A stretch of DNA of 64,000 bases from Methanobrevibacter ruminantium M1. GTDB lineage: Archaea; Methanobacteriota; Methanobacteria; Methanobacteriales; Methanobacteriaceae. Below the pieces are notes generated by a model. That model searched no databases. It was not told where the DNA came from and was given only the letters and a program-made list of their open reading frames with translations. Both the position numbers and the translations under genes were made by a program. Numbering within the stretch: position 1 is the stretch's first letter; every line of letters begins with the position of its first letter. Positions 3,486-46,236 of the stretch are shown here, piece after piece. The stretch spans positions 1,139,501-1,203,500 of the forward strand of contig NC_013790.1 in the NCBI RefSeq assembly GCF_000024185.1, read 5' to 3'.

Positions 3486-4151
3486 TTATGCTTCATTAGG
3501 AGCTAATACACCTAATTTGTCTAATAATTTTGGTTTGTAAGCTTTTAATCTGTCCCATATGATTACGGTTAAGATACCTTCACCAATAGCTAATGGTACT
3601 TGAGTTACTGCAAAGATAACTAAGAATTTTGTTAATGCGCTGCCAAAAGAAGGAGCAGGGAATGCGAAAGCTAATTGGAATGAAGTAGCCACATAAGTTA
3701 ATAAGTCACCTAAGAATGCTGCAAAGAAAATTGCAATGGTTGATGAAATATTAGCTTTGATGCAAGCTTTGTATACGAGCCAAGCAACGAATGGGCCTAT
3801 AATACCCATTGAGAAAATGTTTGCACCTAAAGTGGTTAATCCGCCGTGAGCAAGTAAGATTGCTTGGAACAAGAGTACGATAGTTGCAAGTACAGCAGTT
3901 ACAGCAGGGCCGAATAATGCTGCACCTAATCCGTTACCACAAGGGTGAGAACAGCTTCCAGTAACGGAAGGGAGTTTTAAAGATGATAAGATGAACATGA
4001 ATGCTCCACTGACAGCGAGTAATGCCTTGGAGTCAGGTGTTTCATCTACAATTTGTTTTATTTGATAGATACCGTAAGCGACAACGATGAATGATACGAC
4101 GAACCATATGATACACCATGTCAAAGGTAAATATCCTTCCATAATGTGCAT
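3486..4151 (-). CDS. cbiM: cobalt ECF transporter substrate-binding component CbiM
   Basis: 221-residue polytopic membrane protein. The N-terminus MHIMEGYLP is the conserved metal-coordinating start of CbiM/NikM, which must lie right at the N-terminus, so this start is firm. A second conserved His-containing segment, [18 protein letters not shown], follows after about 60 residues. A GGAGG ribosome-binding site precedes the ATG. It is the first gene of the importer and is divergent from the corrin biosynthesis genes, with palindromic promoter-proximal sites at 4215-4236 and 4308-4337. Confidence 0.93.
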
Positions 4152-4307: not shown

Positions 4308-4337
4308 TAAGTATATTTATATAATAAGTTATACTTA
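4308..4337. promoter_or_regulatory. second inverted repeat in the cbiM-cbiL divergent region
   Basis: TAAGTATA-N14-TATACTTA, 8-bp perfect arms around TTTATATAATAAGT. The wide spacing recalls NikR-type operators (two short arms about 14-16 bp apart), but the arm sequence is not the bacterial NikR consensus. The rest of 4152-4685 is AT-rich, with an imperfect stem-loop near 4271-4293 and a TATA-like AAATTTATAATAG near 4426 that could serve cbiL. I see no cobalamin riboswitch features. Confidence 0.4.
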
Positions 4338-4685
4338 AACTTATTTGACAACATATAAAATTTAGTTGATTTTGATTATTTATTTTATATTAACTAAAAT
4401 GAGCATATTTTTTATCAAAAATTCTTAAATTTATAATAGTGCTCTATTTAAACTTGCTTTAAAATATAATGTGTTTATTTAACTTTAAATTAAATTTAAG
4501 GCTATTTGCTATAATTAATTTAGTTATGTTTCTTATGGTTTTCTAAAATATCTAAATTTAATCATTTAGGTATTTGAAAAATTCATATAAAAACAATTTT
4601 TAGGCATTTTTAAAAATTTATTTTAAAAGCAATTTAAGCATTTTTAAAAAATTCATTTTAAGAAAATAAATTCTAGGGTATTGAA

Positions 4686-5372
4686 ATGGAGAAAGGAAAA
4701 TTATATGGTGTAAGCATTGGCCCGGGAGATCCTGAGCTAATAACTGTAAAGGCAATGAATATAATATCAAAATCCAAGTATATTGCAACTCCTCATACTG
4801 GAACAGGGGAATCCTTGGCATTGTCAATAGTGTCCCAGGCGATAGACTTGTCCAATAAGGAGATAATGCTTTTGGAGTTTCCTATGACAAAGGATAAAGA
4901 TATATTGACTAAAAGCCATAATGAGGCTGCAGAAGCAATTATTAAGGTTCTTGACAGTGGAGAGGATGTTGCAATGTTGAATCTAGGTGATGTTACTATC
5001 TATTCAACTTTTGACTATACTAAGGATAAATTAGTGGAAAGAGGCTATGATGTTCAGGTTATTCCAGGTGTCACAAGCTTTTGTGCATCTGCATCTGAGC
5101 TTAAGATAGGCCTGACAACTATGAATGAGCCTTTGCATATCATTCCAGCAAGCGGAATAGACATTAAAGAAGCTCTTAAGATGCCGGGATCCAAGGTCTT
5201 CATGAAGATTGGAAGGTCAATGCCTAAGCTGATTGAAGCGATTGAGGAACTTGGTCTTCAAGACAATGTTTATGCAGTTGAAAACTGTGGTTTGGAAAAT
5301 GAGAAGGTTTATAAAGGTCTAAAAGAGTTTGATGAAAAAATGGGCTATTTTACTATAGTCGTTGTTAAATAA
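4686..5372 (+). CDS. cbiL: cobalt-precorrin-2 C20-methyltransferase CbiL
   Basis: 228-residue SAM-dependent tetrapyrrole methylase; it adds the C20 methyl group to cobalt-factor/precorrin-2, the first ring methylation after cobalt insertion. The N-terminal GVSIGPGDPELITVKA motif and the central VIPGVTSFCASASELKIGL are typical of CbiL/CobI, and the length is normal. It heads the plus-strand corrin cluster, divergent from the cobalt importer, so both may share one control region. Confidence 0.93.
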   Translation: MEKGKLYGVSIGPGDPELITVKAMNIISKSKYIATPHTGTGESLALSIVSQAIDLSNKEIMLLEFPMTKDKDILTKSHNEAAEAIIKVLDSGEDVAMLNLGDVTIYSTFDYTKDKLVERGYDVQVIPGVTSFCASASELKIGLTTMNEPLHIIPASGIDIKEALKMPGSKVFMKIGRSMPKLIEAIEELGLQDNVYAVENCGLENEKVYKGLKEFDEKMGYFTIVVVK

Positions 5373-41334: not shown

Positions 41335-42120
41335 GTGAATCTAAAACGTATTTTACTAGTGGTTTTAGTTGCTGTTGTAGTGATTGGCTCTACTGCATTC
41401 CTATTAAATTATGATGAAACTGTAAAATACACTACATATAATTTATCCAAAACATGCATGATGGATTTGCCATCTGGAGACAATTATGAAAATACCACTG
41501 TTAATGAAGCAATTCGTCAAATCAATGATACAAACCGTGATTTAACTGTTTTATTCTATAATAGTGAAGACAATAGTACTGTAGCCCGGGTAGAATTCGA
41601 ATTTACCATAAATGATTTTAAAGCCACTGCTACTGAACAGACTGTTGCAAACAGAACTGTCTGGTATAACGAGGAAAATGGTACTTATATGGCATTTTTA
41701 GGTAATTCAGTTACCCATGACAATATAATCATCATCACAAATGATGTTGAGATATTGGAACATCTCATATCAAGCGTGAAATTTATTTTCCTAAATGAAG
41801 ACGGCACTGTAAATTCCACATCTGATATGGTCAATAATCAAAGCATAAATGTCACTGGCGGTACGGCTTCAAATGGAACTGATGCAAGTGCATCTACAGC
41901 TACTTCCAATGTTTCAAGCTCTAATTCCCAATCTACAGGCAATGATGGATATTATTGGTCTGGACAAGATCAGGATTATATTAAGGAGTATACCGACAGC
42001 AATGGCATACAGCATATAGACCGTAGGAACGGACCTAATGAGGCTTATGATCCAAACACCCAAAGGCATTATACTGATGGTGTAGAGGATACAGCAGCTT
42101 ATAATCAAGACTTTAATTAA
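41335..42120 (+). CDS. membrane-anchored or secreted Ser/Thr/Asn-rich protein
   Basis: 261 residues. It starts with GTG at 41335 behind a very strong GGGGAGGT ribosome-binding site. The N-terminus is a basic cap and hydrophobic helix (RILLVVLVAVVVIGSTAFLL), a signal anchor. A folded part follows (about residues 30-165, with N-linked glycosylation-type sequons), then a Ser/Thr/Asn linker (about 165-205) and a Tyr/Asp-rich tail. A surface role is likely; function unknown. Confidence 0.7.
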   Translation: MNLKRILLVVLVAVVVIGSTAFLLNYDETVKYTTYNLSKTCMMDLPSGDNYENTTVNEAIRQINDTNRDLTVLFYNSEDNSTVARVEFEFTINDFKATATEQTVANRTVWYNEENGTYMAFLGNSVTHDNIIIITNDVEILEHLISSVKFIFLNEDGTVNSTSDMVNNQSINVTGGTASNGTDASASTATSNVSSSNSQSTGNDGYYWSGQDQDYIKEYTDSNGIQHIDRRNGPNEAYDPNTQRHYTDGVEDTAAYNQDFN

Positions 42121-42352
42121 ATAGGATAATTTATTTTATCCTTTTGACTCTTTTTTTCATTACTAGGCTATTTGCCCTATCTTTAAGACTTTTTATTTTA
42201 TTTTATTTCATTACTGGACTATTTGTCCTTTCTATTTTATTTTATCCATAGATTTCCTACTTATTATTTTATCAATTCTCTTTTTATTAAGCTGTCACAC
42301 TTTTTTTAAAAATATCTTGTCACATAGATTTAGGGTGTGTCATATAAATTTA

Positions 42353-42381
42353 GAACAAAACATTTATATACTAGTTTGTTC
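42353..42381 (+). promoter_or_regulatory. promoter-like TATA box inside an inverted repeat, no gene downstream
   Basis: GAACAAA (42353-42359) and TTTGTTC (42375-42381) flank ACATTTATATACTAG, a strong archaeal TATA box. Transcription would begin near 42393 and run rightwards into 1.2 kb without any open frame, including the hairpin array. A 10-bp hairpin (AAAACTTGAA / TTCAAGTTTT, 42404-42428) would be at the RNA 5' end. A GNRA-type hairpin ATCAAAT-GAAA-ATTTGAT lies at 42577-42594. Confidence 0.45.
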
Positions 42382-42959
42382 ATAATAATAATTGTGATTA
42401 GAAAAAACTTGAATTTGATTCAAGTTTTAATTTTTTTCAATCATTGGATTTGTCATTAAAATTAAGAACATTATCTCATAAAAATACTTTGACCTCTTCA
42501 TTAATAAAAATCCATAATAAAACACATAAATCGAAACTCATTATGCAAATTTGGTGGTTGAAAAAATCTAATCCTTATCAAATGAAAATTTGATTATTCC
42601 ATTGATTATATGATAAGATAAAAAAGCTCATGTTTATTCATATAACACCTATAATTAATTGATGGGATCTGTTAAGTTTCTTAATCAGGTCTTGTCATCG
42701 AAATAGTAATATATTGTTTCTGGATTCTAAGAATCATTTTGATACTTTATTTTACTAATCTGTTATTTGGAATAAGATTCTGGATTTTAGATTTTAAAAT
42801 ATCGTCTTTTGATTCTTATTATTTGGAAACAATATTATTTAAAAACGGAGAAGATATGAAAGTTTTAAAATGATAAAGAATTATTGTTTAATATCCAAAT
42901 AAATTGTTTGTCAAATGTCTCTAAAAGATTCATAATATCATCATGCTTATGAAAAAATA

Positions 42960-43331
42960 ATTGCATTCTTGGGGGTGAATTATGCAATAATGAAATATGA
43001 ACTGGGGTGATTCATATTTCATTTTTCATAAGAAATAAGCTGGGGTGATCTTATTTCTTTTTAAAAAAGAATTGAGTTCGGGGGTGAGCTTTATTCTTTT
43101 TTCCTAGAAGCAAGTCATGATGAACTTGATTCAAATATTATATGATTCTTGGGGGTGAAAATTAAGGAAATATGAATTGGGGGTGATTCGTATTTCATTC
43201 ATTGAATAGGCCTGGGGGTGAGCTTATTCATTTACTCTTATAGAATAACTCATCATTTAACTCTTATTGATAAGCTTGGGGGTGAGCTTATCCTTATGGA
43301 TTGAATAAGTTATGGGGGTGACTTATTCAAT
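42960..43331 (+). ncRNA. array of hairpins with constant GGGGTGA loops (candidate structured RNA)
   Basis: About ten hairpins at 42960-42988, 42989-43023, 43030-43059, 43063-43102, 43107-43132 (loop degenerate), 43145-43163 (weak), 43167-43196, 43203-43230, 43269-43292 and 43300-43331. Stems are 7-13 bp and differ in sequence but remain paired; loops are 8-10 nt, typically YTGGGGGTGA. G-runs start at 42971, 43004, 43042, 43080, 43151, 43179, 43214, 43278 and 43314, a pitch of about 28-38 nt with two gaps of double length that hold degenerate members. Strand is inferred from the upstream promoter; transcription is unproven. A TTTAAGAAT / ATTCTTAAA hairpin near 43359-43379 may end it. Confidence 0.6.
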
Positions 43332-43527
43332 TACCAATTATAATCTCATATGCGCTTTTTAAGAATTTAATTCTTAAATTCTTTAATCCTCTTTTAAACT
43401 GCTTATTTTCTATTTAAAAATCCATCTTATTTAAATAGTTTTTTTTGAATCTTAAACAATAATTTTCGCTGTTTTATAAATCATTTTTTAAAAACTTCTT
43501 TTAATTTTTCCACTAAAAATCCTTAAG

Positions 43528-43567
43528 TTTAAGAACAATAAGATACATAATATTATATATTCTTAAA
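43528..43567 (+). promoter_or_regulatory. putative hsdS-hsdM promoter with flanking inverted repeat
   Basis: TTTAAGAA (43528-43535) and TTCTTAAA (43560-43567) flank CATAATATTATATA, a TATA-like core. Transcription from here would leave a leader of about 40 nt before hsdS. The arrangement resembles the site at 42353 (arms around a TATA box), and GAACA occurs at both. Confidence 0.4.
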
Positions 43568-43625
43568 TTTTAGAACATTCATTTAATATTTATTTCATCA
43601 AATGATGAATAAGGTGAGGACTTAG

Positions 43626-44198
43626 ATGATAGAAAAGGTACGATTCGATCAGATTGCAGATATCTTTACGGGAGTAAGGGTAAAAAGGTATCAGAAAGGT
43701 AAAGGAACTACAGTTGAAAGGCCCATTCTAAAGAAAACATATTCCGAAAACAGTTCAAAATTGGATTTGGAATATGAAGAGGTATCAGAGGAGATCCATG
43801 AAAGATTCTACTCACAGGAAAATGATATTGTAATTCTCCTTGCAGGATCTAAAGTGAGCAAAATAGAAGAGGCTGGAATTATCATTCCAATGTATTATGC
43901 TGTTGTTAGAGTAAAAGAAGGTTATGATGTTGATTTTATCTACCATCTGCTTAAAAGCGATATCTTCCCAAGGGAATTGCATAAAATTGAAGAGGGAACT
44001 ACATTAAAGATTATAAAGACAACTCACCTTAAATCTATTTATTTGCCTGTTCCAGATTTAGAAACTCAAATAAACTATGGAAAATTGTTTAATTTAATGG
44101 ATAAGCGCATCAAATTAAATATGGAATTGGCAGAACTTGAAAAACAGATTGAAAAGTCAATTATCAATGAGATGCTCCTGGAGGAAAAAACTTTTTAA
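43626..44198 (+). CDS. hsdS: half-length type I restriction-modification specificity subunit (HsdS-like)
   Basis: 190 residues, about half of a normal HsdS. It has a single target recognition domain (KVRFDQIADIFTGVRVKRYQKGKG ... FYSQENDIVILLAGSKVSKIEEAGIIIPMYYAVVRVKEGYDVDFIYHLLKSD in parts) with the TTLKIIKTTHLKSIYLPVPDLETQ motif. One helical spacer follows (KLFNLMDKRIKLNMELAELEKQIEKSIINEML). Half subunits can dimerise to read palindromic sites. GGTGAGG precedes the ATG. It stands upstream of hsdM, the reverse of the usual order, and no hsdR is in the window. Confidence 0.85.
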   Translation: MIEKVRFDQIADIFTGVRVKRYQKGKGTTVERPILKKTYSENSSKLDLEYEEVSEEIHERFYSQENDIVILLAGSKVSKIEEAGIIIPMYYAVVRVKEGYDVDFIYHLLKSDIFPRELHKIEEGTTLKIIKTTHLKSIYLPVPDLETQINYGKLFNLMDKRIKLNMELAELEKQIEKSIINEMLLEEKTF

Positions 44199-44217: not shown

Positions 44218-44331
44218 TTTTTACTATTGAGGTTTATTTTTACTATTAACGTTATTTTTATATTGAGGATTATTTTTACTATTGAGGTTTATTTTTACTA
44301 TTAGCTTTATTTTTATTATTGAGGTTTATTT
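44218..44331 (+). repeat. 18-19-bp tandem repeat carrying the hsdM ribosome-binding site
   Basis: Six units starting near 44218, 44237, 44255, 44273, 44292 and 44310, consensus TTTTTACTATTGAGGTTTA. The last unit supplies GAGG (44321-44324), 7 nt before the hsdM ATG, and GAGG recurs in three earlier units. Copy-number change would alter the hsdS-hsdM spacing and the number of ribosome-binding sites. Confidence 0.85.
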
Positions 44332-46236
44332 ATGTCAAGCAGATTAGGACGCCAACTATGGGATAAATATGAGGAATTAAGAACAAACAGCATGGTTGGT
44401 TTTTTAACAGATGAAGATTTCCAGAAGTACTTTTTAGGTTTCATAACCTACAAGTATCTCTCTGAAAATTTGGAATTGTATCTTGATAAGGAATTGGAAA
44501 AGGACGATTTGAAGTTTGAAGAGGCATATAACTTTGAAAATTATGGCAAGGTTTTAGCGAAAAAGGCAATCTATAACTTAGGCTATTTTATTACACCTAA
44601 CCATCTATTTAGAAATGTCATAGCCTCCTATAATCAGGGTGCAGATATTTCAAGAGAATTGAAATGGGCTTTTGCTGAAATAAATAGTTCCTGTAAGAAA
44701 ACCGAAAGTCAGGAAGATTTTGAAAACCTATTTGAAAGCGTTAATCTCCAAGCCACTCCATTAGGTAAAAAGCAGGAGGATAGAAATAGGGTAATCTATA
44801 ATATATTGAACGCTTTGGATAGTGTTGACTTTGGCTTGGATGAGTTCAATTCTTCACTCTCTTTAATTAACCATTATTCTGAGCCTGCTCGAGAGCTTGG
44901 TGTGAATCTGGATGCTTTGGAAAAGGAATTGCTTTCAGATCCTAATAAGAATATCTTTTTAGATGATTCTCCCCTAAATGAAAGTTCTTCAATTCCATTA
45001 AATGAGGCTCCATTTGAAGAGTATGCATCTATGGAACTTTTCTTAGACGATATTGCTCCTGTTGAAGAGTTTGATTCTATGGAACTTTCAAATAAAGAGA
45101 ATATTGTCACAGGTTTAGAAAATCCAAATCATCCCAATAGCTTAGTCAATGAGGGATGGAATGACAGGTCCTATGACAGCTATAGGATTCAAAAGCAATA
45201 TTCCATAGGTGACGCATTTGAATATCTCCTTGATAAGTTTTCCCTAAATGCCTCAAAATCTGCTGATTTTTACACTCCAAATGATGTTTCAGTTTTGGTT
45301 TCAAAGCTTGTGGCCACAAACAAAAGGGCTATTGATTCAGTTTACGATCCTTGCTGCGGCTCTTCCTCAATGCTTCTGGAATTAAACAAACATGTTTCCT
45401 TAAATCTTATCTGCGGCCAGGAAGTGAATGCATATTACTATAATATTTCAAGGCAGAACATGATCTTGCATAACATTCACTTTAAGGACTTTGACATAAA
45501 GCAGGGAGATTCATTGGATAGCCCTCATCATATAGGGTATGATAAATTTGATGTTGTAGTCTCTCAGATTCCATTCAATGTAAGTTGGACCGCCAAGAAA
45601 AGCTTCTTAAATGATCAAAGATTTAAGGAGTACAATGCATTGGCTCCAAGGGTAAAGGCGGAATATGCATTTATTCAGCACATGCTTTATCATTTGGATG
45701 ATGATGGGATTATGGTTGTAATAGCTCCTCATGGGGTATTATTCAGATCCGCTTCTGAAGAATCAATAAGAAAGATAATAGTCTCTAAGATGAATTATCT
45801 GGATGCAGTCATCGGTCTTCCGTCAAATATGTTCTATAGCACAAATAGCCCTGCATGTGTACTGATATTCAAGAAAAACAGAAGATATGATGATGACGTA
45901 TTATTCATTGACGCTTCCAAGAACTTCAATAAGATAAAGCTTAGAAACAATCTTAGAAAAGAGGATATCAATAAGATTGTAGGCACTTATGTCTCAAGGG
46001 CTGAAGTTGACAAATACTCTCGAAGAGTCAGCTTAAGGGAAATTGATGAAAACAATTGTAACTTGAATATCCCTAGATATGTGGATACATATGAGGAAGA
46101 GGAAATAAACATCCAGGAAATTTATAAAAGACGGGAAGAAGCCTCTCGTGAACTTAAGGAAGTTACTTATGAAATAGATGAGCTTTGTAAGGAATTAGGT
46201 ATTGAGAATCCCTTAATAAATAATATCTTTGAATAA
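44332..46236 (+). CDS. hsdM: type I restriction-modification methyltransferase subunit HsdM, degenerate catalytic motif
   Basis: 634 residues. An HsdM N-terminal helical domain (about 1-190), an acidic Ser/Asn/Glu linker (about 193-285, including PLNESSSIPLNEAPFEEYASMEL-like repeats in parts), then an N6-adenine methyltransferase domain (about 288-560) and a helical C-terminus. Motif I is DPCCGSSSM (339-347) where DPxxGSGG is usual. The catalytic motif, normally NPPF, reads Q412-I-P-F within VVVSQIPFNVSW. Loss of the Asn and first Pro predicts little or no methylation. YTPNDVSVLVSKLV and RKIIVSKMNYLDAVIGLPSNMFY.TNSPACVLIF are well kept, so the fold and HsdS binding may persist. Confidence 0.88.
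   Translation: MSSRLGRQLWDKYEELRTNSMVGFLTDEDFQKYFLGFITYKYLSENLELYLDKELEKDDLKFEEAYNFENYGKVLAKKAIYNLGYFITPNHLFRNVIASYNQGADISRELKWAFAEINSSCKKTESQEDFENLFESVNLQATPLGKKQEDRNRVIYNILNALDSVDFGLDEFNSSLSLINHYSEPARELGVNLDALEKELLSDPNKNIFLDDSPLNESSSIPLNEAPFEEYASMELFLDDIAPVEEFDSMELSNKENIVTGLENPNHPNSLVNEGWNDRSYDSYRIQKQYSIGDAFEYLLDKFSLNASKSADFYTPNDVSVLVSKLVATNKRAIDSVYDPCCGSSSMLLELNKHVSLNLICGQEVNAYYYNISRQNMILHNIHFKDFDIKQGDSLDSPHHIGYDKFDVVVSQIPFNVSWTAKKSFLNDQRFKEYNALAPRVKAEYAFIQHMLYHLDDDGIMVVIAPHGVLFRSASEESIRKIIVSKMNYLDAVIGLPSNMFYSTNSPACVLIFKKNRRYDDDVLFIDASKNFNKIKLRNNLRKEDINKIVGTYVSRAEVDKYSRRVSLREIDENNCNLNIPRYVDTYEEEEINIQEIYKRREEASRELKEVTYEIDELCKELGIENPLINNIFE

Follow-up and report, generated by a model that had tools for sequence, protein, structure and literature searches.

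Directly upstream of an hsdS-hsdM gene pair in Methanobrevibacter ruminantium M1 lies an array of hairpins that share a G-rich loop and differ in their stems. The array is best explained as the 3' half of a separate, structured non-coding RNA, encoded on the + strand and about 0.95 kb long in M1 (0.5-0.95 kb in relatives), which would engage C-rich small RNAs (sRNAs) of the same genome multivalently, as a sponge or docking platform; we give this reading of the RNA and its function, taken jointly, about an even chance of being correct. All coordinates below refer to the window, that is, the whole 64 kb stretch of M1 DNA that was analysed. Equivalent arrays are found in ten related species, and the species that carry them belong to the rumen methanogens.

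The hairpin array of M. ruminantium M1

The array occupies positions 42961-43331 of the + strand and consists of nine hairpins with GGGG(G)TGA loops and two degenerate members, bearing out a first-pass annotation that had described about ten hairpins with constant Shine-Dalgarno-like loops. The motif GGGGTGA is located at 42972, 43004, 43042, 43081, 43152, 43180, 43215, 43279 and 43315, and only two further copies, counting either strand, lie elsewhere in the 64 kb window. Most copies are held in a loop of 8-10 nt on a stem of 7-17 bp, each stem with a sequence of its own, whilst the copy at 43152 sits on a weak stem. The array is unique in the 2,937,203-bp M1 genome, where all four copies of TTGGGGGTGA fall inside it.

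Hairpins 1 (42961-42987, loop GGGGGTGA), 2 (42989-43023, loop CTGGGGTGA, 13-bp stem), 3 (43030-43059, loop CTGGGGTGAT, 10-bp stem) and 4 (43063-43102, loop GGGGGT(GA), 17-position stem that includes two G.T pairs and a mismatch) precede the first degenerate member, hairpin 5 (43107-43132, loop CATGATGA), which was read directly from the sequence. Hairpins 6 (43142-43166, loop GGGGGTGA, the weak stem), 7 (43167-43197, loop TGGGGGTG, one G.T pair in the stem) and 8 (43203-43230, loop CTGGGGGTGA, one G.T pair) are followed by the second, strongly degenerate slot, hairpin 9 (43241-43263), which is assigned with low confidence from spacing and weak pairing, and then by hairpins 10 (43269-43292, loop TTGGGGGTGA) and 11 (43300-43331, loop TATGGGGGTG, 11-bp stem), all on the + strand. 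Two double-spaced slots with degenerate members had been proposed previously; the description suits the weak slot at about 43241-43263, but at 43107-43132 there is a good 9-bp hairpin with one mismatch, of which only the loop is degenerate.

The array does not have the organization of a CRISPR array, as the loop alone is constant, the flanks are paired and covary, and the hairpins recur at a pitch of 28-71 nt. Rfam scans returned no family at the gathering threshold, and assignment to a known RNA family was rejected on these grounds; a permissive Rfam scan likewise gave no match to the CsrB/RsmZ families. CsrB and RsmZ carry many hairpins with the loop GGA for the protein CsrA, which is bacterial. 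Like them, the array strings together many hairpins that keep one loop motif while their stems vary; unlike theirs, its loop is matched by a complementary RNA of the same genome.

Structure, covariation and strand

Folded as RNA, the interval 42930-43360 lies far below shuffled controls on both the + strand (z = -5.7) and the - strand (z = -8.8). Fold energy is consequently uninformative as to strand, which was read from wobble pairs instead. A register search that penalized G.T and A.C equally gave 603 Watson-Crick, 61 G.T and 7 A.C pairs over 11 species when written for the + strand; the selected molecule is therefore the + strand RNA. Among 30 hairpins, all 12 stem pairs have changed on both sides, and the covariation score of 0.618 compares with 0.256 in shuffles (0 of 500 reached 0.618) and with at most 0.313 when the alignment was slid. 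The covariation and the slid controls rule out chance palindromes in AT-rich DNA and, together with the wobble asymmetry, lend good support to the original proposal of constant loops and covarying stems in a structured RNA that titrates something.

That asymmetry also bears on whether the repeats act as DNA, either as cruciforms or as binding sites, for instance for HsdS. The HsdS family does bind DNA, and GGGGGTGAT occurs in the sRNA elements as well, on the other strand; a DNA palindrome, however, should show G.T and A.C equally rather than 61 against 7, and the C-rich elements persist in genomes that do not have the array-linked HsdMS pair. A DNA-level site array, which the first-pass annotation had offered as an alternative, is thus disfavoured, and we regard it as very improbable.

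Conservation and genomic context

As the RNA reading required, the array is conserved in other Methanobrevibacter: in the ten related species it occupies the same syntenic place as in M1, between a homologue of the gene at 41335-42120 and, on contigs that extend far enough, the pyrophosphatase gene ppaC, and in every species hsdS and hsdM follow it directly. Searched with a covariance model of the hairpin, 11 of 19 Methanobrevibacter genomes gave a match. With the same model no array was found in other genera of the family, which yielded three isolated, borderline matches; these were single hairpins in three genera, and the two regions that were read contained no array.

Counted over genomes that represent one species each, several of them incomplete, and that are not independent because the species are related, the array and an HsdM of this type co-occur in 11 of the 11 genomes in which both are visible and are both absent from six. 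Two further genomes, G003 and G005, have contigs that start within the hsdS-hsdM genes or shortly ahead of them, which puts the array out of view, and in G001 the entire array-hsdS-hsdM unit is missing from between its flanking genes.

Promoters and architecture of the RNA

The coordinates given for the array in the first-pass annotation hold, but about 600 nt further upstream lie the promoter of the RNA and its 5' element (42334-42445). The promoter (42347-42370, + strand) comprises an operator-like motif, AAATTTAGAAC (42347-42356), and a TATA box, TTTATATA (42363-42370), which align and are conserved in 11 species, and from archaeal promoter spacing the RNA is predicted to start at about 42390-42394. 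It would open with a stem, P1 (GTGATTAGAAAAAA ... TTTTTTTCAATCAT; 42394-42444, + strand), which apart from its variable inner part is near invariant in the 11 species: its 17 consensus pairs show hardly any covariation, and the covariance model of the 5' element (R1) matched 11 of 11. The operator-like motif recurs as TTAAAATTAAGAAC at 42456-42469 (+ strand), and a variable linker connects P1 to the array. Two C-containing motifs, GACCTCT and AACACCT (42490-42500 and 42642-42652), recur in most species amid this variable region. The RNA has a T-rich end of its own, with T-rich stretches after the array, and both transcript ends are predictions, as is transcription itself. No open reading frame of at least 60 aa is present in 42121-43625.

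The gene hsdS has a separate promoter (43523-43576, + strand), in which operator-like motifs at 43523-43536 and 43563-43576 flank a TATA-like stretch at 43550-43559; its operator, CTTAAGTTTAAGAACAA, is kept in 11 of 11 species. The operator pattern TTAANNTTWAGAAC has seven matches in the genome, no more than the control (7 vs 7) and hence without genome-wide enrichment, yet three of the seven are clustered within 1.1 kb at the array locus.

This second promoter bears on the idea that the array serves hsdS-hsdM in cis, as a leader or regulatory region on which an sRNA encoded downstream of hsdM would act. Such an arrangement would account for the position of the array immediately upstream of hsdS in all species and for the sRNA element that most relatives carry directly downstream of hsdM. 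In each of the 11 species, however, a conserved promoter and operator separate the array from hsdS, and the array is followed by T-rich stretches; we consider the arrangement improbable.

C-rich elements complementary to the array loop

Small structured elements sharing a near-invariant core, UAUCACCCCCUUUACAU, occur in the genus, two to four per genome that carries them. The core complements the array loop GGGGGUGAU exactly; taken as the sRNA core AUCACCCCC, the exact match runs over 9 nt. A near-invariant element of about 80 nt with a TATA box, a closing stem and a terminator-like hairpin occupies the place between hsdM and ppaC in 11 relatives that bear hsdM, and it is also there in G001, where both array and hsdM are missing. 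It is absent at that place from M1 and G013, and the four M1 elements with the core UAUCACCCCCUUUACAU all lie elsewhere in the genome, at C1:454.2k, 962.6k, 963.4k and 2572.0k. The element at this position in G017 has lost two core C bases, and two intact copies are found elsewhere in that genome. Overall, the elements fall into classes that differ in their closing stems and share the core, which is loop-exposed or unpaired in the predicted folds. A sequence near ppaC in relatives, GGGGGTGATATG, was first read as a Shine-Dalgarno sequence and is in fact the antisense of a C-rich sRNA element.

With one mismatch allowed, the core was detected in 16 of 19 Methanobrevibacter genomes, including 13 of 13 with the array or its hsdM, so that both partners of the proposed sponge reside in the same genomes; elsewhere in the family there were two isolated single matches. 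The sRNAs are probably an older or broader part of the system than the array, because three genomes (G001, G012 and G018, the last only 62% complete) keep the core and show no array. A scan of a species-level genome collection recovered the core in Methanobrevibacter together with scattered matches in unrelated lineages, and the contexts read for viral and distant bacterial matches look like isolated chance occurrences.

In the segment G000:C1:958500-968500 (L235), two C-rich elements, at positions 4130 and 4937, flank a gene with a SocA_Panacea domain (antitoxin-like; 4317-4796). The same arrangement recurs at L238 and L241, and a functional link between the elements and this gene is possible.

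Loop pairing with the sRNA core and with 16S rRNA

The loop GGGGGUGA(U) is exactly complementary to the core AUCACCCCC, as expected of sponge sites that match the seed of a co-resident sRNA. For the loop bases, the predicted pairing energy is -14.7 kcal/mol with the sRNA core versus -11.7 kcal/mol with the 16S tail, which we take to be AUCACCUCCU. Titration of the ribosomal anti-Shine-Dalgarno, also suggested in the first-pass annotation, draws on the capacity of GGGGGUGA to pair with this tail over 8-9 positions with one G.U. The discriminating base, however, is G in virtually every loop, where the 16S tail would prefer A, and A is indeed the commonest base there in the few GGTGA leaders of the region (7 of 12); as the sRNA core is also the better complement, titration of the ribosome is disfavoured and appears highly improbable.

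Loop and core are both invariant, so the pairing offers no compensatory change by which it could be probed. The 8-mer TCACCCCC is not enriched genome-wide outside the array (13 occurrences vs 15 for the reversed pattern), and the argument for pairing therefore rests on this motif being the core of conserved elements, one of which is physically linked to the array locus. mRNAs with a perfectly matching GGGGGUGA leader are few; three M1 genes apparently have GGGGGTGA in their start region, two of which encode zinc-ribbon proteins. Pairing of the loops with C-containing motifs of the RNA itself was also considered and is weak in M1 (about -7 to -8 kcal/mol); in relatives it reaches about -11 kcal/mol, at non-conserved places, compared with -14.7 to -18 kcal/mol for the sRNA core.

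A putative archaeal sRNA sponge

Under the sponge model, each hairpin would present the loop UGGGGGUG(A) and pair, probably as a kissing loop, with the AUCACCCCC core of a structured sRNA family of about 75-90 nt encoded at two to four loci per genome, so that the array would sequester or dock these sRNAs multivalently. Since a single base change separates the sRNA core from the ribosomal anti-Shine-Dalgarno, the sRNAs may normally mask G-rich ribosome-binding sites, a masking that the array would relieve. That the loop carries the matching change suggests a parallel, 'orthogonal' Shine-Dalgarno/anti-Shine-Dalgarno pairing used for regulation. Most simply, the half-size HsdS and degenerate HsdM inherited with the RNA would either partner it as proteins or serve as an autoregulator through the operator common to both promoters. 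If correct, this would be an archaeal multi-hairpin sponge whose cognate sRNAs are already identified by sequence, and the model is directly testable.

A sponge comparable in principle is known from experiments in Staphylococcus aureus, where RsaI pairs through its GGGG motifs with RsaE, whose UCCCC seeds are directed against Shine-Dalgarno sequences as well (PMC9217828). Both cases set G-rich motifs of one RNA, with several contact sites, against a C-rich sRNA seed that fits the Shine-Dalgarno sequence. RsaI, however, has two G-tracts, whereas arrays of the M. ruminantium type have 4-9 regularly spaced hairpin loops and face several sRNA loci; they also belong to another domain of life, are linked to an inactive methyltransferase pair, and pair by prediction only. 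Within the archaea, sRNA154 and sRNA41 of Methanosarcina mazei mask ribosome-binding sites (PMC5867862) and resemble the C-rich elements in carrying anti-ribosome-binding-site sequence; the array itself is not an sRNA of that type. No sponge RNA is mentioned in that review of archaeal sRNAs (PMC5867862), and none was found in the open-access literature searched.

A putatively inactive HsdS/HsdM pair linked to the array

The gene pair downstream, which had been flagged as odd from the outset, indeed encodes an HsdS of half the usual size and an HsdM whose catalytic motif is degenerate. The hsdS product (43626-44198, + strand) is a single-unit specificity protein of 190 aa with a Methylase_S match at the edge of the cut-off, and its 11 orthologues are 60-83% identical, which is unusually uniform for a specificity subunit. 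The hsdM product (44332-46236, + strand; 634 aa) has N6_Mtase and HsdM_N domains and a variable insert, and its catalytic NPPF has become SQIPF. Across the orthologues, the catalytic NPPF/Y motif, as aligned to NPPY of EcoR124II HsdM (7bst), reads SQIPF or SEIPF in 12 of 12, and the motif-I glycine is also altered (DPCCGSAS or DPCCGSSS). HsdM thus departs from the (N/D/S)PP(F/Y/W) motif of functional type I methyltransferases (HsdM2S), and we infer from these substitutions that methyltransferase activity has been lost. The complete M1 genome contains no HSDR_N match and so does not provide the HsdR expected of functional type I restriction. Relative to EcoR124II (7bst), the pair retains the HsdM family and domain layout and the HsdS specificity-domain family, but differs in its half-size HsdS, long HsdM insert, loss of NPPF/Y and, in M1, absence of HsdR. 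In M1, a 19-bp sequence, TTTTTACTATTGAGGTTTA, is repeated in tandem about six times between hsdS and hsdM (44218-44331).

That the array always accompanies this apparently inactive type I methyltransferase pair suggests that a restriction system has been domesticated to serve some other function. The sponge model leaves this constant linkage unexplained, making the pair the least explained piece of the locus; HsdMS may be a ribonucleoprotein partner, a regulator of the shared operator, or both. On a more inclusive and tentative view, which we rate as possible yet on balance doubtful, the array RNA, the orthogonal anti-Shine-Dalgarno-like sRNAs and the domesticated HsdMS form one archaeal ribonucleoprotein regulatory unit, in which HsdMS would bind the array RNA or its promoter and control sRNA availability.

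The loops might alternatively bind a protein, be it an RNA-binding protein, in the manner of a CsrB/RsmZ-like decoy, or the inactive HsdMS itself, forming a ribonucleoprotein or titrating HsdMS off its DNA operator. Joint presence of array and HsdM in 11 of 11 visible genomes, with both absent in six, points in this direction, as do the clustering of operator motifs at both promoters and the conservation of proteins that are catalytically degenerate, which would suit a binding role. Exact complementarity of the loop to a conserved sRNA core would, however, go unexplained, and HsdS belongs to a DNA-binding family; we know of no RNA binding by HsdS. Of the earlier proposal that a structured RNA titrates a protein, the first part is supported, and we see the second as a serious but unlikely candidate. 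Returning to the array RNA, its inheritance with adjacent protein genes recalls the large bacterial RNAs of the OLE type, which are also long and structured; it differs from them in having no Rfam match and in repeating one hairpin rather than adopting a unique complex fold.

Half-size HsdS proteins are not confined to the array locus. In another genus of the family (g9; L111-L114), many genomes encode one that is about 27% identical to the array-linked HsdS and adjoins an HsdM-like protein of 565-570 aa with a partial N6_Mtase match, without an array RNA, possibly representing a second, independently domesticated pair. The closest paralogues of the array-linked HsdS, at L118 (G018:C146) and L119 (G010:C198), have HsdM neighbours in which the motif has changed differently (NPPA and QPPF, respectively), and the L119 pair adjoins a full HsdR. 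At L118 there are also three promoter-like stretches with GTCATTAA/TTAATGAC palindromes.
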